Shown one piece after another: positions 361 to 24,095 of a DNA stretch of 56,646 nucleotides. The position numbers were made by a program, and so were the translations under genes. The stretch comes from a virus: positions 1 to 56,646 of the IMG/VR virus record IMGVR_UViG_3300042934_000556. One strand, given 5' to 3'. How positions within the stretch are numbered: the stretch's first letter is position 1; each line of letters begins with the position of its first letter. A model generated the notes under the pieces. The model saw only the letters and a program-made list of their open reading frames with translations. It made no database searches and was not told the origin of the DNA.

Positions 361-624
361 CTACGAGACGGACGCGAAGGGCTTCCAGTTCTCGGTCACT
401 CTGATGTGGAGGCCCGAAACGTTCTCGGTGATGATCTCCAGAATTGCGTCTTCGATGTCCGCATCCTGAAGTTCTTCTGGAAGTTCGTCGGACGTCCTGG
501 TCACCCGCGCTAGTAGGGCAAGGGAGTGGTGGCCCTGTTCCAGGTCATACTGGAGCCACTCATCCCAATGGGTGAAAGGGTTGTAAGGATTGTCGATGGT
601 GGTGAGCATGTGGTTCTCGCTCAT
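361..624 (-). CDS. Small conserved phage protein, function unknown
   Basis: This 87-residue protein is soluble and acidic, with no membrane segment. Its N-terminal part reads DNPYNPFTHWDEWLQYD, a pattern I recall from many phage proteins of unknown role (recollection, not a search). The start ATG overlaps the stop of the RNA polymerase-like gene by 4 bases, suggesting translational coupling. It is the last gene before the 330-base non-coding region. Confidence 0.75.
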   Translation of the reverse strand: MSENHMLTTIDNPYNPFTHWDEWLQYDLEQGHHSLALLARVTRTSDELPEELQDADIEDAILEIITENVSGLHIRVTENWKPFASVS

Positions 625-3404
625 TCGCCACCTCCACTCAGGCCAGCCTTGAGAGTGGACACCGGGACACCGAGCTGGTCGGCTACCTCGGCAAGGGTGT
701 ACTTGTCACCACGAAGAAGCAGCATGGCCCTGTTCTTGAGGGCAGCGCTCATGACTGGCTTCTCTCTTGGCGTGGCCAGTTCCTTGATCTTTTCTACATC
801 GGTGTTGTCGAGAATCTGCTTCAAGACGTTGTTGCTGACGGCGCCAGCCTGGATCGCTTCCCACTCACGTGGTTCGATCGTGATCTTGTCCTTGCCAGCC
901 TGAAGTCTCATGCGAGCCTCAGCGAGAGCCTTCGACTTGAGCTTCTTCTGCTCGGCTTCCTCCATCTCAGGGTGCGACTCAAGCTTTCGCTTGTAGATGG
1001 CGTTTGCTACGACCTGGGCCTGTCGTTCACGGGGGGCGTTCATGAGTGCCAGGGTCAGCTTGTCCTTGAGCATCTGGACTTCCTTGGCATACACCTTTGC
1101 CGCAGAGGGGGAGCGCTCGATACCCTTGGTCTTGACAAGCTCCTTGCGAGCATCGTTAGCCAGGGACTTCAACCTGTTCGAGTGATCAGCGTAGATCACC
1201 TCGATGGGCTTGCGCTTCTCCGAGACAAGGTCATGAGCGTCGTCCGTCTCAGCAAGCTTTGTGGTCTTGACCATCTTAGGCTTGCCGGGGACGTACTCCT
1301 TACCCGTTTCCACCCACACAAGCTTGCCTGTTTCAGGATCGATCGGACCGCCATCCTTGGCTTTCCGAAGTTCCCTATCGAGAACCCGCTTCTGAGAAGT
1401 GGCCCGAGAGATGATGGTTGAAGCACCACCATCGGCCTGACCAGCAGGCTTGGGCTGATACTTCGACACCAAGGCAGGGATACCGTTGTCGATCGCCGAT
1501 TGCTTGTAATTGAGCTTGTGCTTCTCGGCATCGATGATGACCATGGAATGTCGGACTGCGCGAGCAAGCTCGTTGTCCGTGGCCCCATGAATCGTCATGT
1601 CGGTGATGAGGTTGGAGATCTTCCCCATCTCGGTACCCTTAGCTTTGGGGTTGGCCTTCTCGCCTTCGGCGAACTCGACCTTCTTTGTCTTGGCGTTGTA
1701 CGTGCCTCCGCCCAGAACTCGCATACCATCGTAGCCAGGGTACGCCGACTGAGGATCGAATCCCTTGAGACCCTCGAGTGGCGGACGGGACTTGACCTTT
1801 CCGTGGTTGTTCGGAATGACCAGAACCGTATCACCGTCGAAGTCAGCACCCGACAAGCGCTCTGCCACAGAGTGATGGATACCTACTGCGTCAGGAGCAT
1901 TGCCGAGAAGCTTATTCGCCTGAGGGTGGCGGTTGTTCACAATGAGTTCGGGGATCTCGAAGAGACCTCCGTGCGGGAAGCGAACAAGCGCTACTCGGTC
2001 ACCGTTGTCCAGGGTGGGTGCGTAGATCTCTCGAGGACTCATCGAGTTGATCGGCAGTATGACCTTGGTCGCCTGACGAGGAAGGTGTGCAGCCTTCAGA
2101 TGGACAGCCGACGAATCTGTTGAATCAGCGAACTTCTCCAACAGATGTGCCTTTACGGCATCGTTGGTGAGACTCATGATGGTGTCGAACTCGCTCTTCT
2201 TGGTCTCGTACGTGATGTCGAGTTGGTCCTTGGCGAGCGTCGGCTTCTGCTTGGACAGCATCTGAGATGACAGGCTCTTAGACCATTCATCCCAGTTACC
2301 TTCCTTGTTCACGATGTTCATCGCGGACTCGACGATCTTGTTGCCGTCCTTGTCGCGCATCTCAGTGCCGTCAGGGTTCTTGCGGTAGATCTGGTCATCG
2401 ATGACGGCTCCGAACGGGTCGTCCTCCATCACCTTGCCAGTGTTCTTGTCCCGCTTCATCTCCTTCATGGCGTCGAGCTTGTTGCCCGTGTTCTTCTTGT
2501 TGGTGTTGAACACGAGGTCTACGCCAGGCGGCATGTCGTCGTTGTACATCGCCATACCTTTGAGGTAATGCGTGCCATCGACAGCGATGCGAACCTGTGC
2601 ATAGTTCGACTTTCCAAGCGATACGTCGGGGACCCCGCGACGAACGTAGATGACACCGTCGGCGTCGGTTCCGCCTTCTTCAGCGTAACGGACTTTGACC
2701 CTCTTGGAGTCGATCGAGATCGGAGGACGGATACCGTCGTAGGTGCGACCGCCATCCTTCGACTTGACGAGGATCTGCTGGATCTGATCCCGATTGTCGT
2801 TGACCTCTTTCCAAGGGACTTCAGGACCCGCCAACACCTTCAAGGTCGTGAACTTGCCCGTACCGAGCTGTTCCACCTTGATGTAGTGCATCTTGTAGCC
2901 CTCGTCCTCGAGGAGCTTACGAGCGGCCCTGAGCTTCTCCTTGCTGATGTTCAGGTGAAGCTCGACACCAGCGCCGACGTCGATGTACTTCTTCTTGGCA
3001 ACCTGGTCGCGGAGCATGTCCGCAGTCGACTCGAGGATACTGTTCTCTTCAGCGGCGCCCGGCCTGATGAGCGTCCGGAACGTGGATTCAGGGACACCCA
3101 TCTTCTTGGCTGCAGCGACATTGGAGAGGCCTCGCTCCTTGAGTTGGTTGGCTCGAGCGATGTCAGCGGCCTTTCGGGCTCGCTTGGCCATGGCGGTGGT
3201 GTCACGCAGTTGGGTGGTAGTCATACCGAACCCTTCCGCGATGTCCTTCTCCTTGAGCTCCTGTCGCTTCAGGTCTGCAACCATGGACTGGAAGGTACCT
3301 GCACGCTCGTAAGGCGTCTCACCGGAACCCCAGGGGTAGCGGCCCGACTTGCGTCGGATGCCGTAGTGAACGAGAGCATCACGCTCTTCTGCTTCGATGT
3401 TCAA
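621..3404 (-). CDS. Two-barrel RNA polymerase-like protein with N-terminal HYG tag
   Basis: 927 residues. Residues 519-527 read GADFDGDTV, matching the metal-binding DFDGD signature of the beta-prime/QDE-1/YonO double-psi barrel. Just before it (about 449-518) is a stretch resembling the rest of that barrel. Around 275-305, HYLKGMAMYNDD and following residues could be the lysine-bearing first barrel. Helix-turn-helix-like segments lie at about 52-66, 90-112 and 900-920. Residues 13-28 (HYGIRRKSGRYPWGSG) are a variant of the tag on the head-gene block. It starts with TTG overlapping the upstream TGA, with GGGAG before it. A YonO- or crAss-like single-chain RNA polymerase is the best guess; a structural protein with a degenerate barrel is the alternative. 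Confidence 0.6.
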   Translation of the reverse strand: MNIEAEERDALVHYGIRRKSGRYPWGSGETPYERAGTFQSMVADLKRQELKEKDIAEGFGMTTTQLRDTTAMAKRARKAADIARANQLKERGLSNVAAAKKMGVPESTFRTLIRPGAAEENSILESTADMLRDQVAKKKYIDVGAGVELHLNISKEKLRAARKLLEDEGYKMHYIKVEQLGTGKFTTLKVLAGPEVPWKEVNDNRDQIQQILVKSKDGGRTYDGIRPPISIDSKRVKVRYAEEGGTDADGVIYVRRGVPDVSLGKSNYAQVRIAVDGTHYLKGMAMYNDDMPPGVDLVFNTNKKNTGNKLDAMKEMKRDKNTGKVMEDDPFGAVIDDQIYRKNPDGTEMRDKDGNKIVESAMNIVNKEGNWDEWSKSLSSQMLSKQKPTLAKDQLDITYETKKSEFDTIMSLTNDAVKAHLLEKFADSTDSSAVHLKAAHLPRQATKVILPINSMSPREIYAPTLDNGDRVALVRFPHGGLFEIPELIVNNRHPQANKLLGNAPDAVGIHHSVAERLSGADFDGDTVLVIPNNHGKVKSRPPLEGLKGFDPQSAYPGYDGMRVLGGGTYNAKTKKVEFAEGEKANPKAKGTEMGKISNLITDMTIHGATDNELARAVRHSMVIIDAEKHKLNYKQSAIDNGIPALVSKYQPKPAGQADGGASTIISRATSQKRVLDRELRKAKDGGPIDPETGKLVWVETGKEYVPGKPKMVKTTKLAETDDAHDLVSEKRKPIEVIYADHSNRLKSLANDARKELVKTKGIERSPSAAKVYAKEVQMLKDKLTLALMNAPRERQAQVVANAIYKRKLESHPEMEEAEQKKLKSKALAEARMRLQAGKDKITIEPREWEAIQAGAVSNNVLKQILDNTDVEKIKELATPREKPVMSAALKNRAMLLLRGDKYTLAEVADQLGVPVSTLKAGLSGGGE

Positions 3405-5312: not shown

Positions 5313-6497
5313 TCAGGCCGCAGCCCTCAGTTTCCGAGCGAACTTGACCTCATTAAAGCTGTGTTTCTTGATCAAAGCCGCCAAAACCCCACCATCAATA
5401 GCAGCTTCGGACATAAGCACGTAGTAGTGCAGTACGTCGAATGGGGTGTTCAGACGGTCGATTCGACCATGAGCCTGATGCCAGGCCTTGTACGAATACG
5501 TCAGCGAGTAGAAGAGCATCGCGTCCGTCGACGTACAGTTCCAGCCCTCCGATCCAGCCGTGTACTGGACCAGGTAGACCCATCGATCGGTGTCTGGGAT
5601 CTCCTCATGCTTGTGCCCATTCCACTCCGCCACGGGCACTTCCCCGGCCAGTGTTCGGAGCACCTCCAACTCGTAGTCGAAGTTGTAGAACACAACCAGT
5701 CTGGGATGTCGCTTCATCCGCTCCCGAACAGCCTCGAGACGAGACGGGTGGGAATATACGACTTTCCGCATGAGGTAGAAGAACTCAGCGAGGCTGCGGA
5801 TAGGCCTCTCTTCGTACGGATTCCAGCGCTCGTGAGTGATCAACCGCAGAGTGTCTGCATCGAACTCCACCTTCACATTGTGTGTGATCCTGGTGGTGTG
5901 TCGTTCGAACGGCATGTGCACGAGAAGCTCGTTGCGGAGTCGCTCAAGCTTGTGTTCGTTGTGGAACCGCTCGATCTTCGGGAACTTGGTGTAGCTGTTG
6001 AATTCGACGTGGTTGTCGATGAACTCTGTACGGTTCTTGTAGAAACCGTTGGCGATGAAGACCGGGATGTAGTCCATCCAGGTATCGCCGGGAGTGGCAC
6101 TTAGGAGTATCCAGGTGTTCTTCTTCTCCGCTTTGACAATATGGAGAAAGGCCTTACTCCAAGCGCCACTCCCGACGAGCCTCTGCTCATCGAAAATGAA
6201 GAACGCGTTCCGGACGTTCTTGTACTTGGCGATGTTGTTCCAGGAGTCCACCACGAGGCGGCCCGTAAGCGGCCCTGCGGCCTCTCCGACGCCGAACTTG
6301 ATGAACTCCTTCTCCCAGTCCAGGGAGTCCCTCTTCTTCGCCGTGGTGATGACGTAGACGTCTTTCGGCGCTTCCTTCTCGATGTAGTACGCGGCTGCAG
6401 TCAGTGACTTACCGGTACCCACATCACCCCACAGGATCTTGCCATTCGACATGTCGCCGATGGCTTTCTTCTGATGGGGGAACAGGGTAACGGACAC
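5313..6497 (-). CDS. SF2 DEAD/SNF2-like helicase
   Basis: 394 residues with both RecA-like lobes. Motif I is GDVGTGKS (24-31), motif II FDEQR (102-106, DEQR replacing the usual DEAH), motif III LLSATP (131-136). In the second lobe are the VVFYNF strand, [10 protein letters not shown] (motif V) and [11 protein letters not shown] (motif VI). It probably unwinds or remodels nucleic acid during replication or recombination. GTG start with AGGAG nine bases upstream; it follows the 279-residue gene after 6 bases. Confidence 0.9.
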
Positions 6498-10241: not shown

Positions 10242-10342
10242 TTCGAGTTCTCCTTCTTGATCTGTGATATGGCGATGCCGGTTGTGATTCCGACAAGAGC
10301 CATGATGAAACCGAAAGCCGTTCCGATGGCGAATGCGATCAC
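10238..10342 (-). CDS. 34-residue membrane peptide
   Basis: Starts with a GTG that overlaps the upstream stop as GTGA. Nearly the whole peptide is a single membrane helix (IAFAIGTAFGFIMALVGITT) ending in KKENSK. It is in frame with neither neighbour. Tight overlaps on both sides support a real gene despite its length. Confidence 0.55.
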   Translation of the reverse strand: MIAFAIGTAFGFIMALVGITTGIAISQIKKENSK

Positions 10343-10938
10343 CGGGACAGCACCTTCTCGTCGTCGAAGACCCACCCGGAGTCCGTGACGACCTCGGCCC
10401 CGTCCGGAGCCTCCAGGGCACGAACGCCACCCTCGAGGGGGATCTGCGGCGGTGCACCCTCGATCGGGATGTGGGCGTACTTCTTGTCGAGGTCGTCCTC
10501 GTGGAGGATGGCGAACATCGACTTCAGGTACGCGCTGACGCCCTGCTTGCCGCCGATGTTGTAGTTGTACGGGCTGATCTTGAGGTCGATGTTGTCGAAC
10601 TCGCCCCAGTCCATCATCCCGACGAGGTCCTCCTCGATCTGGGTGCGGCTGTTGGTCGACATGGTGACCAGGAAGATCCGGGGCGGACGCGGGCCGTCGA
10701 ACTTGACGTTGACCTTGAGGTGGTAGAAGGGCAGCTCGCCCTCCTCGCGCGGCGGCTTGACCTTGACGTTCCACCCGGCGGCCAGCATGGCCTCGCCCTG
10801 GACCGGGTCGAGGACCACGTGGAAGTTGCGGTAGCCCTTCGCGTTGTACATACCCTCGTTACCGGCGAAGTTCCGGTAGATGATCCGGGCTCCCTCCAGC
10901 GTGATCTCGTCGTCGACCCTGCGAACCAGTTGGCTCAT
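10339..10938 (-). CDS. Putative ssDNA-binding protein, internal start of the fusion
   Basis: Internal in-frame ATG with its own AGGAG ten bases upstream, giving a 199-residue protein. GARIIYRNFAGNEG, RNFHVVLDP, WNVKV and the KVNVKF/YNYNIGGKQGVSAYLKSMF pattern resemble a conserved phage protein I recall as a free-standing, OB-fold-like single-strand-binding candidate. That supports separate translation in addition to the fusion. Position beside replication genes fits. Not verified by search. Confidence 0.55.
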   Translation of the reverse strand: MSQLVRRVDDEITLEGARIIYRNFAGNEGMYNAKGYRNFHVVLDPVQGEAMLAAGWNVKVKPPREEGELPFYHLKVNVKFDGPRPPRIFLVTMSTNSRTQIEEDLVGMMDWGEFDNIDLKISPYNYNIGGKQGVSAYLKSMFAILHEDDLDKKYAHIPIEGAPPQIPLEGGVRALEAPDGAEVVTDSGWVFDDEKVLSR

Positions 10939-11337
10939 GTTGCTCTTGCTCCTAAATATCTGGGTGTTGATACTGGCCTTCTCGGCCAGTTCACTGCAGT
11001 GTGTTGCACCGTTCGATTCGTTGTGAATGAACGCAAGGCAACGGTCCGCGCCGAGCTTTACCATCTCCGCATTCCGAGCGAAGCCAGCACCTCTCTTGCG
11101 CGGACCGTTCCAGTCTGCCGGGTGACGCTCGACGCCGATGAGATGGGGGAGTACAGAGCCTCGCACTCGCGCCCACTCATCAGCATGAGAATCAGCCCCG
11201 GTAGGGCAAGCCCCGTGAACAACAACGAATTCGTCTTCGTCACTCTCGAGGAAATATGTCTCGAACAGCCAGTCGAGCTCTTCGAAGACAAGTGACTTGT
11301 CCGTCCAGTCCCGACTACCTGTTACCAGGACTCTCAT
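10339..11337 (-). CDS. SLOG (DUF2493)-type domain fused to a putative ssDNA-binding protein
   Basis: 332 residues with no stop between two distinct parts. Residues 1-132 match the DUF2493/SLOG Rossmann-like fold: MRVLVTGSRDW, VVHGACPTGADSHADEWA and GAGFARNAEMV, a nucleotide-binding pattern. Residues 134-332 are the protein described at 10339-10938. Start ATG at 11337 overlaps the previous stop, with GAGGT upstream. Because the reading frame runs through, translation from here must give the fusion. The SLOG part may sense or bind a nucleotide. Confidence 0.65.
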   Translation of the reverse strand: MRVLVTGSRDWTDKSLVFEELDWLFETYFLESDEDEFVVVHGACPTGADSHADEWARVRGSVLPHLIGVERHPADWNGPRKRGAGFARNAEMVKLGADRCLAFIHNESNGATHCSELAEKASINTQIFRSKSNMSQLVRRVDDEITLEGARIIYRNFAGNEGMYNAKGYRNFHVVLDPVQGEAMLAAGWNVKVKPPREEGELPFYHLKVNVKFDGPRPPRIFLVTMSTNSRTQIEEDLVGMMDWGEFDNIDLKISPYNYNIGGKQGVSAYLKSMFAILHEDDLDKKYAHIPIEGAPPQIPLEGGVRALEAPDGAEVVTDSGWVFDDEKVLSR

Positions 11338-11477
11338 CGACGCTTGTACCTCACGACCGCACCGGGAGACCGAGAGTCGAGGTAGGCGTAAATGTAGGCT
11401 TGCGAGGGCGAATAGAATATCGACCCTCGCTTGGGACGGAATCCCTTTCGATAAAGCATTCGCCGAATCCAACCCAT
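11334..11477 (-). CDS. 47-residue basic protein
   Basis: Starts at the ATG at 11477 with GGAGGAG upstream and ends with TGA overlapping the ATG of the SLOG gene. It begins MGWIRRMLYRKGFRPKRG and is rich in arginine and tyrosine. The strong ribosome site and the exact overlap on the 3' side make it credible. No family recognised. Confidence 0.6.
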   Translation of the reverse strand: MGWIRRMLYRKGFRPKRGSIFYSPSQAYIYAYLDSRSPGAVVRYKRR

Positions 11478-13343: not shown

Positions 13344-13507
13344 CACCCCTCCTCTACATCCAATTGGCCGAGCGTCTTCAGGGCACCTACGTATCTACTG
13401 AAGCCGATCGGATCGAATATGGGCCATGTGTCGTGGTACCACCGCTCGGCGAAGGAATACGGATCGAACTCCTCCGCCGAGTCGATGGGTTGTGCTCTGT
13501 TGCTCAC
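13343..13507 (-). CDS. 54-residue protein of unknown function
   Basis: GTG start directly after the replicase stop codon, with no spacer; stop overlaps the next ATG. Contains FAERWYHDTWPIFDPIGF, an aromatic-rich middle. No strong ribosome site, so it probably depends on re-initiation after the replicase. Confidence 0.55.
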   Translation of the reverse strand: MSNRAQPIDSAEEFDPYSFAERWYHDTWPIFDPIGFSRYVGALKTLGQLDVEEG

Positions 13508-16500
13508 TCAGACCGAGCAGAACTCATCGGCGTTGCCGAACTGAGCGATGGACTGGTACGCCTCCTCGGCGACCTGGTTGTAGTACGCCACGTCGATGAT
13601 GTCCGCGATGGACCCGGTACCCGAGACGGCGTCGTCCAGGTTCTCGAACACCATCCGGTCGACGGCTTCGGGATACAGCAGACGGATGGCCTCCGCCTCC
13701 AGCCAGGAATATCCCTTGGTACCGCTGACCGCGAACTCCTTGCCGTCCTTGATACGAAGAAGCTCCCCACCCTTGACGACGTCCTGATCCGGGTTGATCG
13801 GGACGAACATGCCGGACCGGCCGACGTGCGTGTCCTCGTCCTCGGGAGTCTCCGTCGTGAGCGCCTCGTCCTTAGGCTCCCCGATCTCCTTCACGGCCCC
13901 GTTGAACCGGAGGTACATGGCACCCTCCTTGACCTGCTTGGTCTCACACAGATCCTTGAAGTAGATCGGCTCGCCGGTGAACAACTTCTTGAAGACGTAT
14001 GGGTGCTTGAACTCCGCGCCAGTAGCCGACCAGTAGCCGACCGGGTCGCCCTCCGGCGCCCATCCGACGTAGGCGATGTACACGGCGTCGTTGACGAGGC
14101 ACATCTTCTTGTAGGTGGACTCGTGCTTGAACTCGTAGCCGTACTTGGCACCGAAGTCCTTCACGAACTGAATGATCTCCGGAGTGGCCCCCGGGATCTT
14201 GACCGAGTCGGTCTTGATGTGGGCAACCGTGACGCCCTTCTCCTGGAGCGCGTGCTTCAGGTCGATCATGAAGAGCGCACCGCGCTTGGCGACGATGTTG
14301 TCCTTGTTGCGCGGGTCTCTAGCCGGGTTGTCGAACTTCGCCGACGTGTAGCCGTAGGTCGAGTTCGCCACCAGCTTCAGCGACTGCTCGAGGTTCTTGA
14401 AGGCCTTCTTGCGCTCCTTCGGGTCCTCGATCTTCTGAATCTCCTCGATATGCGGGCGGAGCTTGCCCTCCAGGAGACCCTTGGCGTACTCGTAGTCGCC
14501 CTCCTTGATGGAGAGACGGGCTTCGAGGATCGCGGAGTACTTCGCCGTGTAGGGGCCGAACAGGTTCAGCTTCACGATCGAAGTCGGGTGCATCGAGGCG
14601 ACGTCCAGGAGAGCGACGTTCTCGTACATGCCCGGTTCCGCGTAGACGTAGCCACCCTCGCCGACGACCTCACCCCGGTAGGTGCTCTTGTCGACCTTGG
14701 CGTACTCGTCGAACTTGTAGCCCGGGAACATCTTCGACAGGTCGGTGTACACAAACGACCGCTGCGGGTTCCGCTCGTTGCCGAACAGGATGCGCATGAC
14801 GTGCGTGCGAGTCGAGTGATTGACGGTGAGGCCGCTGAGGTCCGCCAGGATCTGCCGGGCGATGAAGTCCTGCTGGCAGTGGTTCCAGACTACCTCGAGG
14901 GCGTTGACGTCGTTCTTGCAGTATTCGACGACCTGCTTGATCTTGTTCTTCGGGACCGGCTTGTCCCAGGGAATATCCATCTCGACATGCGGGAAACCGA
15001 GCTCGATCTCCCACTTCTTCAGAGACTTCTTGTCCGAGGAGAAGTCGTACACGTCGGCGTAGGACGCGTTCCAGGCGCTGGCGAACTTCGCCGCGTTGTC
15101 GTTCTCGTTGATGATCCGCTGGGAGAGGTGGTAGAGCTCCTCGTTGTTCATGCCGAGCATCCGACCCCAGAGGATATGGTTGTCGTACCCCCGGTTGTTG
15201 AAGCCGACCAGCTTGAAGTTCTTGACGAGGTTCTCGACCTCCGACGGAGTCGGTTCGATCATCGCGGTGACGGTCGAGGAGCCGAGGTACTTCCAGCAGA
15301 TCACGAAGAGATTCTGGTAGACCTCGCAGTCGAAGAATACGATGCGGCCGTTCTCGGCACTCTCGTTCTTCACGATCTCCGGGCTGTCCTCCAGAGAGGC
15401 CTCCGACTGGAAGTCCATCCGGAAGACGGTCTTCAGGCAGATATCCTTCTGGTTCGTGCTGTTGTTGGCGAGCGTCATGAGATCAGACCTCATGTCGGTC
15501 AGGTCGAAGGGGACTCCCCTCCTCTTGGCTTCGCCGAGGATATGGGCGGCGAAGTCGATGTTCTGCTTGGTACTGCCGAACTCCTTCCTCAGGCATCGGA
15601 CGAGCATGTTCCGGAGACCTTGCTCAGTCTTGATGGTGTTGTCTGTCAACACAGTCTTCTTCTCCCTGATGGGCAGTCCACCGCTAAGGGTGGCTACCGC
15701 GACGTTATTGCACCTCGTCAGCTTCCGTCGGAGTGACGCGTTCCCCGTGTACACCTTGATCTCGATACCGGGGGCATACTCCTTGGCCAGCTCGTTGACA
15801 TCGCCGTCGTAGATATAGTGCAGGTGGACACCCTTGCCGCTCTTGCTGATCTCGGCGTAGGTATGCGGCCAACCGTCGGCAGCCGCCTCCATGCTCCGTT
15901 CGAGCGACTTGGTCTTACCGTCGTCTTCGGTCAGGTCGAAGTCGATGACGATGTGGTACTCGGGGACCTTGAGAAAATGGAGCTCCGAAGTGTCAAGATC
16001 ACCGAGGACCGTGGATACGACCTGGTTGGGCTTGGGGGTGAAGGTCTCGCCCTTCTTGTTGATGCGCTCGGAGTCATCCCAGTAGAGCTTCGGGTTGCCT
16101 GCAGCATTCGCATACTGCGCAGGATATCCGGCGTACATCTCATCCAGGATCGACTCGGTCTCGTCCATGGCCAGGGTAAAGGCCGTGCGCTTCGAGTTGG
16201 TAACCTGAGTTCGGTACTTCTGGGCTCGGAACACCTTGTAGACGCTCCTTACAGAACTCCCGTCGAAGACCGCTCGGTCGTGGAACTCTTCGAAGTAGTC
16301 CTTCAACTGCTCGCGGAAGTGGTACTTCTTCATGGACCAGCCGAGCTTGCTGTCTTCCGCCCAGTTGTTGAAGAGGGCCCAAGCTTGGGTGAGAGTTGTG
16401 CCGTCCTTTTCCTTGAAGATATCGAAGTGATCGTCGATGAAGTTGGCGAACGGATCGGTGTTGAGGATCATGCGCTCGGGCTTGTAGTCGTTGTATGCGC

Positions 16501-17521
16501 CACGACCGCCCTTCGCCTTGTAGACCTCCAGACAATGGTGGGCGATCGCACCCAGCTCGAACTCCACCCTCGCCATGAGAGATCGGTAGTGGTTGAACTC
16601 GAGCGTGATACCTGTCGGGTTCACGTCAATAAGACGACGGATCAGGCCTGACTTGGAGTCACTGATTTTGACAGGCTTGTTCGTCCCCATGAACAGGAAC
16701 GCGTCGATGACCATCTCGTAGCCGGGCTTGTGCTTTTCGTTGATGATCATCTTGTCGTGACCAATCACCGAGTTGAGCACGCTGTTGTCCTCGATCTTGG
16801 ACAAGTCCCCGTCGTGCTGGACCGCAACCAGGGGGTTTGTCTTGAAGACCGCCGTGGCGAAGGCGTTGTTAGAACCAACCAACGCCTTGGCCTCGAACAT
16901 GCCGACGTAGCCCTCGAAGAGCTTCTCGATGATCTTCATGATGGTCGACTTACCGGTGCCGGGCTCTCCGAAGAAGACCACGAACTTCTCGATCTTCTTT
17001 GACTCTCCGGATACGATGGCTCCGATCGACCATTCGATCTTCTCGCGTTCCTCGTCGGAATATAGAGTACCCACGAGTTCATCCCAGGCACTGAAGTCAC
17101 CCGGGGCGAGATTGTACGGAAGCCTCTTGCTGACGAAGTCGTTCTTCTTGACCTCCGTGTTAAGGAAGGTCAGTTTTCGGTCGAGCTGCTTGGCGTCGTC
17201 GCTAGCATTCTTGAGGTACTGCTTGTACTGCGTCCACTGCTTGGAGTTGTGCGAGCGGAGGAGTTTCACGTTGCACGGAGTGCCGGCTTCCTTCAACTGC
17301 CTAGCGTAGGCCAGAAGGGCTTCGTCCACCGCGTCCTTGACGTCGTACTCGCGGGTAGACCAGAGACCCTCCTTCTCGTTCCACATGGCGTAGAACGACT
17401 GCCCACGGACCATGAGGTCCTTGGAGTTCCCGACGATGAAGTCGGGGTAGATCTCCACCGGTTCGCCTTCCTTGCGGGGAGGTTTCGTGCACACCTGAAA
17501 GAAATCCAGTTTCGATTCCAT
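13508..17521 (-). CDS. Single-chain replicase: SF3 helicase, AEP primase, 3'-5' exonuclease and family B polymerase
   Basis: 1337 residues. About 145-330 is an SF3/D5-type helicase (Walker A GEPGTGKST 185-193). About 500-620 resembles an archaeo-eukaryotic primase: D-x-D in IDFDL (526-530), GKGVHLHY (563-570) and IEIKV (586-590). About 726-875 is a DEDDy proofreading domain (DCE 731-733, FNNRGYDN 774-781, YCKND 867-871). About 965-1200 is the PolB palm: motif A DVASMHPTSI (D973), KLVANSTYGYT (1049-1059), motif C IKTDS (1102-1106, with K in place of the first Asp of DTD). Ribosome site AAGGAGG precedes the ATG. It could supply most of the replisome alone. Confidence 0.85.
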   Translation of the reverse strand: MESKLDFFQVCTKPPRKEGEPVEIYPDFIVGNSKDLMVRGQSFYAMWNEKEGLWSTREYDVKDAVDEALLAYARQLKEAGTPCNVKLLRSHNSKQWTQYKQYLKNASDDAKQLDRKLTFLNTEVKKNDFVSKRLPYNLAPGDFSAWDELVGTLYSDEEREKIEWSIGAIVSGESKKIEKFVVFFGEPGTGKSTIMKIIEKLFEGYVGMFEAKALVGSNNAFATAVFKTNPLVAVQHDGDLSKIEDNSVLNSVIGHDKMIINEKHKPGYEMVIDAFLFMGTNKPVKISDSKSGLIRRLIDVNPTGITLEFNHYRSLMARVEFELGAIAHHCLEVYKAKGGRGAYNDYKPERMILNTDPFANFIDDHFDIFKEKDGTTLTQAWALFNNWAEDSKLGWSMKKYHFREQLKDYFEEFHDRAVFDGSSVRSVYKVFRAQKYRTQVTNSKRTAFTLAMDETESILDEMYAGYPAQYANAAGNPKLYWDDSERINKKGETFTPKPNQVVSTVLGDLDTSELHFLKVPEYHIVIDFDLTEDDGKTKSLERSMEAAADGWPHTYAEISKSGKGVHLHYIYDGDVNELAKEYAPGIEIKVYTGNASLRRKLTRCNNVAVATLSGGLPIREKKTVLTDNTIKTEQGLRNMLVRCLRKEFGSTKQNIDFAAHILGEAKRRGVPFDLTDMRSDLMTLANNSTNQKDICLKTVFRMDFQSEASLEDSPEIVKNESAENGRIVFFDCEVYQNLFVICWKYLGSSTVTAMIEPTPSEVENLVKNFKLVGFNNRGYDNHILWGRMLGMNNEELYHLSQRIINENDNAAKFASAWNASYADVYDFSSDKKSLKKWEIELGFPHVEMDIPWDKPVPKNKIKQVVEYCKNDVNALEVVWNHCQQDFIARQILADLSGLTVNHSTRTHVMRILFGNERNPQRSFVYTDLSKMFPGYKFDEYAKVDKSTYRGEVVGEGGYVYAEPGMYENVALLDVASMHPTSIVKLNLFGPYTAKYSAILEARLSIKEGDYEYAKGLLEGKLRPHIEEIQKIEDPKERKKAFKNLEQSLKLVANSTYGYTSAKFDNPARDPRNKDNIVAKRGALFMIDLKHALQEKGVTVAHIKTDSVKIPGATPEIIQFVKDFGAKYGYEFKHESTYKKMCLVNDAVYIAYVGWAPEGDPVGYWSATGAEFKHPYVFKKLFTGEPIYFKDLCETKQVKEGAMYLRFNGAVKEIGEPKDEALTTETPEDEDTHVGRSGMFVPINPDQDVVKGGELLRIKDGKEFAVSGTKGYSWLEAEAIRLLYPEAVDRMVFENLDDAVSGTGSIADIIDVAYYNQVAEEAYQSIAQFGNADEFCSV

Positions 17522-17532
17522 CTATCCTCCTT

Positions 17533-18072
17533 TCACTCAGCTCGCCCCCGCTCCAGTACGTAAGCACTCAGTTGATCCCAGAGTTCAACCGAACGCTGAT
17601 CCGTACGTGGATATCGCAGTGGGAAGAATCCGCCTTCCCCGGCCGGGCTGTAGTTCCTATGTATTACGTCCTCGAGGACGTTGCTGATGAATGATCTGGG
17701 CAGTCGTCGACGATCGTGATATCCCTCGAGCCCGATGTTGCTCATAAGAGTCCAGAACCAGTAGTGGACCGTCCCGTCAGCCTCAAACTCGAGGTCTTGA
17801 GCAAGACGGACCATCAGTTCAAACACCGAGCACCCCGTCTCCATCCATTCAGGGTCCTCGTCAACAGGAAGGCCCTGGTCCTCCAAAAATCGGAGTCGCA
17901 GAGCCTTCCCGCCTTCGATTCGGTTCTCGTCACGTTCGACGACAACCTCGAACTCCGTAGTGAAGAGAATACGGAGCAGACGCCAGTATGTCAGGGGTCC
18001 TTCGGGGATATCGGGATCGGCGACCTGCCGGTAGAGCCACTCGAAATATGGCTCGTCAAGGCGGACGCTCAT
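17533..18072 (-). CDS. Protein of unknown function upstream of the replicase
   Basis: 179 residues, soluble, rich in aromatic residues (EPYFEWLYRQV, VHYWFWTLMSNIG). No motif recognised. It ends 11 bases before the replicase start, so they are likely co-translated. It might be a replisome accessory, but that rests on position only. Confidence 0.7.
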   Translation of the reverse strand: MSVRLDEPYFEWLYRQVADPDIPEGPLTYWRLLRILFTTEFEVVVERDENRIEGGKALRLRFLEDQGLPVDEDPEWMETGCSVFELMVRLAQDLEFEADGTVHYWFWTLMSNIGLEGYHDRRRLPRSFISNVLEDVIHRNYSPAGEGGFFPLRYPRTDQRSVELWDQLSAYVLERGRAE

Positions 18073-18087
18073 CCCGTAGTCACCCCC

Positions 18088-18750
18088 TTACTTGCCGATC
18101 ACGCTCTCGGAGTGGCGGCCGTCCCAGACGATCTCGAAGTCCATCTTGTACCGGTCGTTCCGGACGTAGATGGTTTTGCGGTGCTCGCCGAGCTGCTCGA
18201 GGTTGTAGTACCCGATGTGCCTCTGGACGAGCTCCTTCGAGAGCGTCTCGTCGTTCTCGTCGGCCACTTCGCTATCGGTGGCGAAATATGTCACTGTGGC
18301 CTGCTGGTAGTCGTTCTCGTTCGCGTCGTACATCGTGAAGTTGATGAGACGCGGACCGGGCTCATTGGTGTTGGTGGCGGCGTCCAGCTTCTCCGCCTCC
18401 TCGACCTTGGTACTGATCTGGGACTGAACCAGTTCCTGAGCGAGAACGGACGGCGCCGAGGAAATGCCCTGGTAGTTCGTCAGTGCCTCAGCGGCCTCCT
18501 CGGAAAGAATGCTGGCCGGGAGGTCATCGCTCGACACTTCGCTTTCAGCCTCGTCCTGCTCCACGATCACTTGGGTGTCATGAGCAAGCAACGCGGCCTC
18601 GATCTTCGCCTTGTACTTCTCCTCGAAGAAGTACCGGGAGACTTCGGTCTCCTTGCGGAGCCTCTCCACGTAGTGGTCGTGAAGTTGTGTCTTGGCGACG
18701 TAATATCCCGCCGCCGCTCCGAGCGCAGCCCACAGTAGCTTGGTGAACAT
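18088..18750 (-). CDS. Membrane-anchored protein with coiled-coil stalk
   Basis: 220 residues. ATG at 18750 chosen because the GTG three codons earlier abuts the GAGGGGA ribosome site. An N-terminal helix (about 4-18, LLWAALGAAAGYYVA) anchors it, followed by a charged helical region and a C-terminal beta-rich part (LINFTMYDANENDYQQATVTYFAT). Unknown function; it precedes another membrane protein. Confidence 0.7.
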   Translation of the reverse strand: MFTKLLWAALGAAAGYYVAKTQLHDHYVERLRKETEVSRYFFEEKYKAKIEAALLAHDTQVIVEQDEAESEVSSDDLPASILSEEAAEALTNYQGISSAPSVLAQELVQSQISTKVEEAEKLDAATNTNEPGPRLINFTMYDANENDYQQATVTYFATDSEVADENDETLSKELVQRHIGYYNLEQLGEHRKTIYVRNDRYKMDFEIVWDGRHSESVIGK

Positions 18751-18772
18751 TTCGATCACTCCCCTCAGGTCC

Positions 18773-19699
18773 TCAGACCTGCTTCATCAGGCTGAGGATC
18801 TCGCCGTCGACGTTGAAGTCGAGAAGGATCGCCTGCTTGTCGCCGTTGATCCACTTCTTGCCCTCGTACACGCCCTCGTTCCAGACGCCGAAGTCGATGA
18901 CGCCGTCGCCACGGCCGTCCTTGGGGTTGATGACCCAGCCGACGACCTGACCGGCAGCGGTACGCTCGAAGCCGAGCATCTCGTAGACCTGGTTCAGCGT
19001 GACGAAGCCGTCGACGCGGAGAAGGGTGTTCGCCATGTTCTGGACGTTCTCGATGCGCGTCTGGTTCTGGTGCGGGAACTCCGACCAGTCATCGTGGTCC
19101 GAGTCGAACAGACGGGCGTAGACCGACCCGGCGTCGATCTCCTTCTTGATGGCCTCCTGGTCGAGACCCTTCAAGATCGTGGTGACCGGGCCGGTCTCGG
19201 TCTCCTCGACGACCTCCCTCTCGGCGGTGCCCCAGCGGTACTCGAGGTCCTTCTCGGTGCCCTGATCCTCGACGACACGCTTGCGGTAGTCCTGGAGCGT
19301 CTTGGTGGCGATGCCGAGAGAGGCGGTGAGAGCGGTGTTGCGACGCGTCAGGATGACATGAGCGCCGGTGAGAGCGGTGAGGGTGCCGAGTCCAATGGCG
19401 ACAGACGGGGCGTAGAGTTTGGCGACGCGGATGGCCACCTGCAGCTTTGCGCCGATCTTTGCCTTCTTCTTGACCTCCTCGCCCTCGTTCTCGGTCTTCT
19501 CGTCGACCTTGTTGAGGAGCTTGTTGCCCTCTTCGAGGACGTCGCTCAGCTTGAGGGTCGCTCGACAGGCGAGGACGACCGTTGTGGTGAATCCGACGGC
19601 GCCGAGGCCGAGCAGCAGGACGGGCGAATGGGTCTTGACAGTGAGGGTCTGCCGGGCCATGGCTCCGGTGACACGGTTCCTCATGGACTTGAGGCTCAT
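18773..19699 (-). CDS. DUF6353-like membrane protein
   Basis: 308 residues. Two hydrophobic segments (about 26-46 and 95-120) flank a charged region (NKVDEKTENEGEEVKKKAK), as in DUF6353 proteins. The C-terminal 100 residues contain NTLLRVDGFVTLNQVYEMLGFER and GDGVIDFGVWNEGV, shared with the genes at 20306-20776 and, more weakly, 23316-24095. Probably at the host membrane; role unknown. Start overlaps the upstream stop. Confidence 0.8.
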   Translation of the reverse strand: MSLKSMRNRVTGAMARQTLTVKTHSPVLLLGLGAVGFTTTVVLACRATLKLSDVLEEGNKLLNKVDEKTENEGEEVKKKAKIGAKLQVAIRVAKLYAPSVAIGLGTLTALTGAHVILTRRNTALTASLGIATKTLQDYRKRVVEDQGTEKDLEYRWGTAEREVVEETETGPVTTILKGLDQEAIKKEIDAGSVYARLFDSDHDDWSEFPHQNQTRIENVQNMANTLLRVDGFVTLNQVYEMLGFERTAAGQVVGWVINPKDGRGDGVIDFGVWNEGVYEGKKWINGDKQAILLDFNVDGEILSLMKQV

Positions 19700-20151
19700 C
19701 GGTTGTTCTCCTGGGCGTTGGTGTAGGTGCGGATACAGTGCTCGGCGATCTCGTCCAATTCGGAGTCAATCATGTCCATGAGCACGTAGTACTTGTTGAC
19801 CGGCAGACGTTCGCCAGTGGTACGAACGAAGATGGTCCCGCTCAGCGCAAAGGGTTCGTTCAAAGCCTCAGCGAAAATGAACGGGTCACCCTCGATCGGG
19901 AAATAACCCTCGTGTTGGAAGACCACGTGTGGGGTTCGACGACCCGAATCCACGATGTTGAAGAGCTGAAGGCGGTGGATGATCCTCATGATGGTCGTCT
20001 TACCGCTGCCTCCTCGACCGCAAATGATTACGATCTTGGGTTCCCCGCCAGTGAGCATCGCACCGACGATGATCTCCAGCTTCCTCCGGTCTTCGGGCTC
20101 GAGCAGACGGTCCATCAGCTCATTGTAGGCCTTGGGAATATGGCCGTTCAT
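19696..20151 (-). CDS. Small P-loop ATPase-like protein, related to the replicase helicase domain
   Basis: 151 residues with Walker A GRGGSGKTT (45-53). The stretch LEIIVGAMLTGGEPKIVIICGRGGSGKTTIMRII parallels IEWSIGAIVSGESKKIEKFVVFFGEPGTGKSTIMKII of the replicase SF3 domain, including spacing. It is much shorter than a complete SF3 helicase (no full sensor or arginine-finger part is evident), so it is either a minimal ATPase or a remnant. GGAGGT precedes the ATG. Confidence 0.75.
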   Translation of the reverse strand: MNGHIPKAYNELMDRLLEPEDRRKLEIIVGAMLTGGEPKIVIICGRGGSGKTTIMRIIHRLQLFNIVDSGRRTPHVVFQHEGYFPIEGDPFIFAEALNEPFALSGTIFVRTTGERLPVNKYYVLMDMIDSELDEIAEHCIRTYTNAQENNR

Positions 20152-23315: not shown

Positions 23316-24095
23316 TCAATAGAGCTGGGCGTACCTGTGATTCGGTCGGTTGACGAAGTCGATGGCGAGACACGGGACGTTGTTCTTCGTGAGCGCCGAC
23401 GTGTAGTTGAGTTCGAGCTTGTCGTTGGAGTCCCAGCCGAGGTCGTCGGAGGCGCCGATGGGCGTCAGACCCAGAAGGTGGTAGAACTCCGTCAACGACA
23501 GGTGTGTGCTGTTGATCAGCTCGTGGTTGAAGTCGTTCACGGCCTTACGAATCGTCTCCATGTCACTGACGAAATATCGATCCGACCACTTGTCCCAACA
23601 TAGGACGCTTCCCTGCTGAGCGGCGAGAGCGAGTACCGTCTGGCCCGGAGGGTTCGCTGTGATGCGGTCCTGGACGATCTCGTCGCGGATCGCCTGCTCC
23701 TTGTTCTTACCGACCTTCTTCAGCGTCTTCTCGCGGTACTCCTTGAAGCTCTTCTCGGCGAACGCGTAGGCCGATGCCATGGCAGCCGCCCGGCGCTCAC
23801 TCACGCGGTTGGCGCAGATGGTCGCCGTGACGGTCATGGCCAGGCAGGTCGCTGCCGGGATGTACAGCTTCCAGGTGAGCTCGGCCTTTCCCTTGAACGT
23901 GTTGAAGTGTTCGGCTTCCTCGGTGGTGGAGATCTCCACTTCCGCTTCTCCGAGAACCTTGGCGGCCTGGAAAGCTGCCTTGGCGGCCAAATATACGGAT
24001 GTGACAGCGCCAGAGACGCTTAGTGCGGTCAGAATCGCCGGAGAGTTGTTTGCGGCGACCTTACCTGCACGCTGGAACAGCGCGCTGAAGTCCAT
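23316..24095 (-). CDS. DUF6353-like membrane protein
   Basis: 259 residues. NNSPAILTALSVSGAVTSVYLAAKAAFQAAKVL (about 16-48) and LYIPAATCLAMTVTATICANRV (about 77-98) are the paired hydrophobic segments typical of DUF6353. The charged helix between and after them is also typical. The C-terminal part (HLSLTEFYHLLGLTPIG) weakly resembles the module in 18773-19699 and 20306-20776. AGGAG before the ATG. Confidence 0.8.
   Translation of the reverse strand: MDFSALFQRAGKVAANNSPAILTALSVSGAVTSVYLAAKAAFQAAKVLGEAEVEISTTEEAEHFNTFKGKAELTWKLYIPAATCLAMTVTATICANRVSERRAAAMASAYAFAEKSFKEYREKTLKKVGKNKEQAIRDEIVQDRITANPPGQTVLALAAQQGSVLCWDKWSDRYFVSDMETIRKAVNDFNHELINSTHLSLTEFYHLLGLTPIGASDDLGWDSNDKLELNYTSALTKNNVPCLAIDFVNRPNHRYAQLY

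Follow-up and report, generated by a model that had tools for sequence, protein, structure and literature searches.

A probable HelPrimPolB replicase joining helicase, primase, exonuclease and polymerase domains in a single chain of an actinophage genome

The window analysed here is an entire virus record (IMGVR_UViG_3300042934_000556; 56,646 bases), and the subject of this study is an open reading frame (ORF) at positions 13508..17521 on its minus strand, which starts with ATG and encodes a protein of 1337 amino acids to which all residue numbers refer. The protein very probably belongs to the HelPrimPolB replicases and corresponds, in an actinophage, to GP55 of lactococcal phage 1706. The initial annotation, which gave no strand, had placed a superfamily 3 (SF3) helicase, an archaeo-eukaryotic primase (AEP) domain, a DEDDy exonuclease and a family B DNA polymerase (PolB) in one chain; the ORF is confirmed, with the four domains in that order. 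The fusion is real but already known: the HelPrimPolB group, in which an SF3 helicase and a PrimPol are fused N-terminally to a PolB, was named in 2020 (PMC7544198), and all four activities were reported for one relative, GP55, in 2025 (PMC12205980).

Domain organization and conservation of the replicase

The replicase and its parts, with the evidence for each, are as follows.

13508..17521 (including the stop codon), minus strand: HelPrimPolB/GP55-type replicase, 1337 amino acids (ORF list, phrog_4210, phage homologues)
16202..17521, minus strand: SF3 helicase half, residues 1–440 (Pfam DUF5906, AlphaFold2 model, match to 7ola_C)
15662..16144, minus strand: AEP (PriS-like) catalytic domain, residues 460–620 (primase PHROGs, Pfam Prim-Pol, invariant residues)
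15407..15649, minus strand: alpha-helical domain (the aHD of GP55), residues 625–705 (helices in the model, position as in PMC12205980)
14747..15349, minus strand: DEDDy 3'-5' exonuclease, residues 725–925 (invariant catalytic residues)
13511..14704, minus strand: PolB palm, fingers and thumb, residues 940–1337, with DVASMHP as motif A and HIKTDS as motif C (profiles, AlphaFold2 model)

The PHROG profile phrog_4210 spans residues 5–1336 with 2097 bits, a near-full-length match that excludes chance. The closest relatives are proteins of Rimavirus-type Streptomyces phages, which are 95–96% identical to the replicase and are named DNA polymerase or DNA primase/polymerase in GenBank, and the replicases of two viral-contig loci (L001 and L002), which are 96% identical. 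A two-gene reading of the Streptomyces phages Rainydai and Thiqqums, in which tblastn had joined two places, was rejected because the second place in Thiqqums is a short SF3 paralogue and the replicase itself is intact. An open frame of 790 amino acids at 13364..15736 on the plus strand lies antisense to the replicase; it is probably a by-product of codon bias, with no evidence for a gene.

Contrary to what the initial annotation had implied, the family is not rare, and a search for the same architecture elsewhere was positive. Among 50,697 phage records, 267 match the replicase, and in 252 of these a single place covers 80% or more of the protein; among the hosts named in the records are Arthrobacter, Gordonia, Streptomyces, Lactococcus, Rhodococcus, Microbacterium, Curtobacterium and Faecalibacterium. 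At least 562 stretches in IMG/VR, among the 599 candidate stretches listed, and at least 149 of 179 candidate stretches in bacterial genome contigs encode a relative; the genome loci are mostly from Firmicutes, and many are metagenome bins, for which the host label is possibly incorrect. Conservation was assessed in an alignment of 171 sequences, some of them truncated, comprising the window, 86 viral-contig loci, 80 genome loci and four named phages. The 87 sequences made up of the window and the viral-contig loci leave out the fragments L011 and L015, which lie at contig ends, and the repeats L008, L009, L024–L027 and L032.

The protein is encoded by one long, unbroken ORF in all 93 viral-contig loci examined, a count that includes the repeat contigs and excludes L011 and L015, and in 78 of the 80 genome loci. 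The two exceptions, L181 and L186, each carry the gene in two pieces and are the observation that would favour a mis-joined or chance fusion, an artefact of assembly or reading frame whose functional units would be separate proteins. The unbroken ORF in the remaining loci and the activity of purified GP55 as a single polypeptide (PMC12205980) argue against such an artefact, which we regard as scarcely credible. In L181 (5995–10146) the break falls between profile positions 364 and 366, and in L186 (5992–10054) it falls inside the PolB part; either sequencing error or real decay may account for these splits.

Structure models were calculated with AlphaFold2 in two jobs, on residues 455–1337 and 1–720, with 64 and 63 relatives, respectively, plus the window protein. 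In the helicase half, which we take to consist of an N-terminal D5_N-like region, an SF3 AAA+ core (residues ~145–340) and a winged-helix-like tail, Pfam DUF5906 matches residues 183–296, and the Walker A stretch G185–T193, the Walker B residues D237/D239, the sensor N281 and R295/R296 are present. The Walker A lysine K191 is retained in 168 of the 171 sequences and aligned with a gap in the other three, and the Walker B residue D239 is replaced in eight. This half matches the SaPI5 primase-helicase by profile, and in the N-terminal model (predicted local distance difference test, pLDDT, 88.5) residues 1–424 match its structure 7ola_C with a Z of 21.9 (376 aligned, root-mean-square deviation, rmsd, 4.3), followed by poxvirus D5/E5, African swine fever virus PrimPol and NrS-1.

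In AEPs the catalytic motifs are of the hhhDhD, SxH and h(D/E)h types, and the corresponding residues here are D527/D529, S559/H566 and E587. These residues and E557 are identical in all 171 sequences. The region of residues 500–620, which the initial annotation had called primase-like, matches primase profiles: among 29 family members, phrog_3022 and phrog_695 were each matched by 28 and phrog_1829 by 26, Pfam Prim-Pol by 19 with a permissive E cut-off of 10 (the lowest E being 0.0015) and the AEP-TOTE profile by seven. Residues ~460–620 are thus assigned, by primase profiles and motifs, as the AEP domain. A PDB profile search with this region matched no primase by sequence; two lactococcin immunity proteins, hit on the helical part with E 0.12 and 0.28, were taken as chance. 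The match lists of the two models were filled by SF3 and PolB structures, so that the absence of an AEP chain from them says nothing on the fold. The alpha-helical domain is represented in the predicted model by helices at residues 627–701.

The position of this domain relative to the helicase was measured against the single profile phrog_1829, a primase profile of 772 positions. Residues 123–438 of the replicase match profile positions 447–760 and residues 521–567 match positions 77–123, so that the two halves of one profile are matched in opposite order. The swap relative to the usual AEP–SF3 primases that had been pointed out from the sequence is borne out by this comparison.

In the exonuclease, the catalytic residues D731/E733, D780 and Y867-x3-D871 form a DEDDy set that is identical in 171 of 171 sequences. 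The polymerase part matches PolBs of known structure by profile and carries motif A (D973), motif B (K1049/N1053/Y1056/G1057) and motif C (K1103-T-D1105-S). D973 is invariant throughout the alignment; N1053, which we equate with the sensor N828 of Pol epsilon, is kept in 169 sequences, the other two showing a valine and a gap. The C-terminal model has a pLDDT of 89.5, and its best match among family B polymerases has a Z of 14.0 (460 aligned, rmsd 5.7).

The KTDS sequence of motif C, noted in the initial annotation as a departure from DTDS, is as described, but it is no peculiarity of the window copy: K1103 is lysine in 170 of the 171 sequences and the remaining row has a gap, so that KTDS is the state of the family rather than a defect. 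It also occurs in GP55, an active polymerase, and therefore does not preclude robust synthesis. Motif C of HelPrimPolB has been called divergent (PMC7544198). At motif A, the position of the steric-gate tyrosine, Y645 in the B-family polymerase Pol epsilon according to PMC10639073, aligns with H978 in an alignment to Escherichia coli Pol II, and H978 is histidine in all 171 sequences. As regards this histidine, the main text of PMC7544198 (the motif logos of its Figure 4 lying outside this scope) does not mention 'steric', 'SLYP' or 'ribonucleotide', and the accessible text of PMC12205980 does not mention 'steric' or 'ribonucleotide'.

A protein-primed (phi29-like) or primer-independent polymerase, in which the AEP domain would be incidental, might be suspected from the best polymerase Pfam match, DNA_pol_B_2 (E 0.00075, below the cut-off), and from the primer-independent PolBs, in which motif C is likewise missing its first Asp (PMC7544198); against it, RNA priming by GP55 uses its PriS-like domain (PMC12205980). 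The terminal protein region inserts TPR1 and TPR2 of phi29-type polymerases sit between motifs A and B and between motifs B and C. The corresponding spacings here are 76 and 56 residues, which leave no room for inserts of the sizes generally attributed to them, and the profile aligns continuously with Pol II across motifs A–C without a long insert. The replicase thus lacks the phi29-type inserts, and we consider this alternative very improbable.

Proposed function

The activities of the family are known from GP55 (locus L020 in the analysed set), which was purified and possesses polymerase, 3'-5' exonuclease, helicase and RNA primase activity. Its unwinding depends on UTP/dTTP, it makes DNA de novo, it dimerises via the helicase half, and its priming and extension work in trans (PMC12205980). 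In the alignment, residues that were inactivated in GP55 have identical counterparts here, namely K189 (K191), D509 (D529), D712 (D731), E714 (E733) and D949 (D973). By analogy, the same four activities would be expected of the window protein: the N-terminal SF3 domain would open the double strand in front of the fork, the AEP and helical domains would lay down a short RNA primer, and the C-terminal PolB would extend this primer with proofreading and strand displacement. The biochemistry of GP55 is in line with the suggestion, made from the sequence, that such a protein might by itself unwind DNA, prime and extend. Both the earlier observation and the functional guess attached to it are correct, for a family that has already been described and of which one member has been characterized biochemically.

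Several points weigh against a direct transfer of function from GP55. The helicase halves are just 30% identical, and GP55 comes from a distant phage, so that its UTP/dTTP preference and its dimeric state may not apply here. The AEP domain is assigned from profiles and motifs, and the window protein matches Pfam Prim-Pol with E 0.13, under the profile cut-off. In the helical domain, Y655 and F667, the mutation of which abolished priming in GP55 (PMC12205980), are replaced by F672 and L684, residues found at these positions in 12 and three of the 171 sequences, respectively. The poor Prim-Pol match and the two replacements would fit a polymerase-exonuclease with a working helicase, the AEP and helical domains of which are weak or structural while priming is left to the host. 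The AEP catalytic residues, however, are invariant throughout the alignment, the AEP region is the best conserved of the stretches compared with GP55 (55% identity) and both substitutions are conservative; a weak or purely structural AEP part is considered very improbable.

The replicase assigned here as HelPrimPolB would be the main replicase of the phage. No match to DnaB, DnaG zinc-ribbon, PolA or PolIII-alpha profiles was found in the window genome, whereas the same profiles matched 14, 10, 10 and 10 of 14 control genomes, respectively; the record may, however, be a fragment, so that the absence of other replication genes is no proof, a further reservation to those above. A scan of the genome with Pfam Prim-Pol gave no match and missed the AEP domain of the replicase too, and the profile therefore cannot exclude a second divergent primase. 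In addition, the window encodes an SF2-type helicase, so that the replicase need not be the sole helicase.

Gene neighbourhood

The genes considered together with the replicase are as follows.

5313..6497, minus strand: SF2-type helicase, 394 amino acids (phrog_62, phrog_16)
10339..11472, minus strand: SLOG (YAcAr) domain plus phage single-stranded DNA (ssDNA)-binding domain (Pfam PF24083, PF10686)
17533..18072, minus strand: phrog_4678 neighbour, 179 amino acids, directly upstream of the replicase (conserved)
18088..18759, minus strand: phrog_4695 neighbour, 223 amino acids, some family members having a hydrophobic stretch at the N-terminus (conserved)
18773..19699, minus strand: DUF6353/phrog_2152 neighbour, 308 amino acids, probable membrane protein (conserved)
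19696..20151, minus strand: truncated SF3 helicase paralogue, 151 amino acids (alignment to the replicase)

Upstream genes were counted in the 82 viral/phage loci in which the upstream flank exceeds 3.5 kb and in the 63 genome loci with such a flank. DUF6353, phrog_4695 and phrog_4678 all lie upstream of the replicase in 78 of the 82; two of the other four loci carry two of these genes, one carries one and one carries none. In the genome loci, phrog_4678, phrog_4695 and DUF6353 were found upstream in 62, 61 and 62 of the 63, respectively. A protein with the phage ssDNA-binding domain, the part that is conserved downstream of the replicase, occurs in 84 of 92 viral/phage loci and 73 of 80 genome loci, and the SF2 helicase in 46 of 92 and 69 of 80. 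In many distant relatives the open frames that carry the part homologous to the SLOG–ssDNA-binding fusion are far shorter, at ~120–200 codons.

At least one hydrophobic 19-mer is present in 148 of 151 DUF6353 proteins, 67 of 156 phrog_4695 proteins and seven of 160 phrog_4678 proteins, compared with one of 157 ssDNA-binding proteins and none of 115 SF2 helicases. From these stretches, the DUF6353 neighbour is probably a membrane protein, and the replication module perhaps has a membrane role. A PDB profile search with phrog_4678 homologues gave no match at E up to 1, and the accessible text of PMC12205980 mentions neither 'neighbor' nor 'SSB' nor 'membrane'. A second DUF6353 paralogue of 259 amino acids lies at 23316..24095 on the minus strand.

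The truncated SF3 paralogue aligns to residues 145–334 of the replicase (29% identity, E 2e-14), with large internal parts missing. In ten of ten aligned copies, some of them near-identical, the P-loop lysine is kept and the arginine-finger stretch is missing. This short P-loop protein occurs in nine of 92 viral/phage loci, a count restricted to ORFs shorter than 350 amino acids since the unrestricted profile also matches the replicase (92 of 92); its annotations vary between terminase small subunit, helicase and hypothetical protein.

The ssDNA-binding protein, the SF2 helicase and the three upstream genes may serve the same replication module as the replicase. In an extended proposal, the HelPrimPolB core would work with the near-obligatory upstream DUF6353, phrog_4695 and phrog_4678 proteins and the downstream ssDNA-binding protein; the histidine at the steric gate might confer an unusual sugar selectivity suited to handover from the fused RNA primase; and, in close Streptomyces phages, the truncated SF3 paralogue might enter the helicase oligomer and so regulate it. 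That a membrane-linked module, histidine-based selectivity and a regulatory paralogue all hold together is a tentative idea, and we consider the combination unlikely.

Elsewhere in the window, a protein of 927 amino acids at 621..3404 on the minus strand is matched from end to end by phrog_4291 ('RNA-dependent RNA polymerase'), hits resembling helix–turn–helix/sigma-70 region 4 lie near residues 890–918, and a homologue in L022 matches Pfam RdRP with E 0.00015, below the cut-off. We presume that it could be a YonO-like phage RNA polymerase.

Comparison with known systems

The replicase is a member of the HelPrimPolB group by architecture, from which no difference was found: SF3, AEP and PolB with its exonuclease lie in that order in one chain, and the Walker A motif, the AEP Asp pair, the ExoI Asp/Glu and the motif A Asp are intact. 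The accessible portion of a paper on DNA polymerase swapping (PMC11348598) does not mention this group. The family shows that one chain can hold a whole fork machine, a design often found in phages of Actinobacteria, Firmicutes and other groups.

The AEP–SF3 primase-helicases (phrog_1829, SaPI5 7ola, NrS-1 6k9c and poxvirus D5/E5) share a homologous SF3 half with the replicase, and in phrog_1829 the AEP half is homologous as well. In these proteins, however, the AEP comes first and no PolB is attached, whereas the order is reversed in the replicase, which therefore does not conform to the canonical D5/NrS-1 type with the AEP N-terminal to SF3. The PolBs of crAss-like phages (L104 and L105) have NTD in motif C and thus lack the first Asp, as does the replicase, but they carry no helicase or primase domain and retain SLYP in motif A; a further phage PolB (L106) also has NTD. 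The crAss-like PolB is listed together with HelPrimPolB in PMC7544198, as a divergent representative of the clade that they share.

The closest characterized system is GP55, which shows the same four-part order and the same invariant catalytic residues in 1317 compared with 1337 amino acids. Its motif A reads SLHP and its motif C KTDS, so that the motif A histidine and the KTDS sequence are common to both proteins. The two proteins are 39% identical over 1209 positions, the polymerase part (48%) being intermediate between the AEP region and the helicase half. Their hosts differ, Lactococcus for GP55 and Streptomyces for the window phage, and at the GP55 locus DUF6353 was found whereas homologues of phrog_4678 and phrog_4695 were not. 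This well conserved actinophage member offers a comparison with GP55 that includes the conserved neighbours and the steric-gate histidine.

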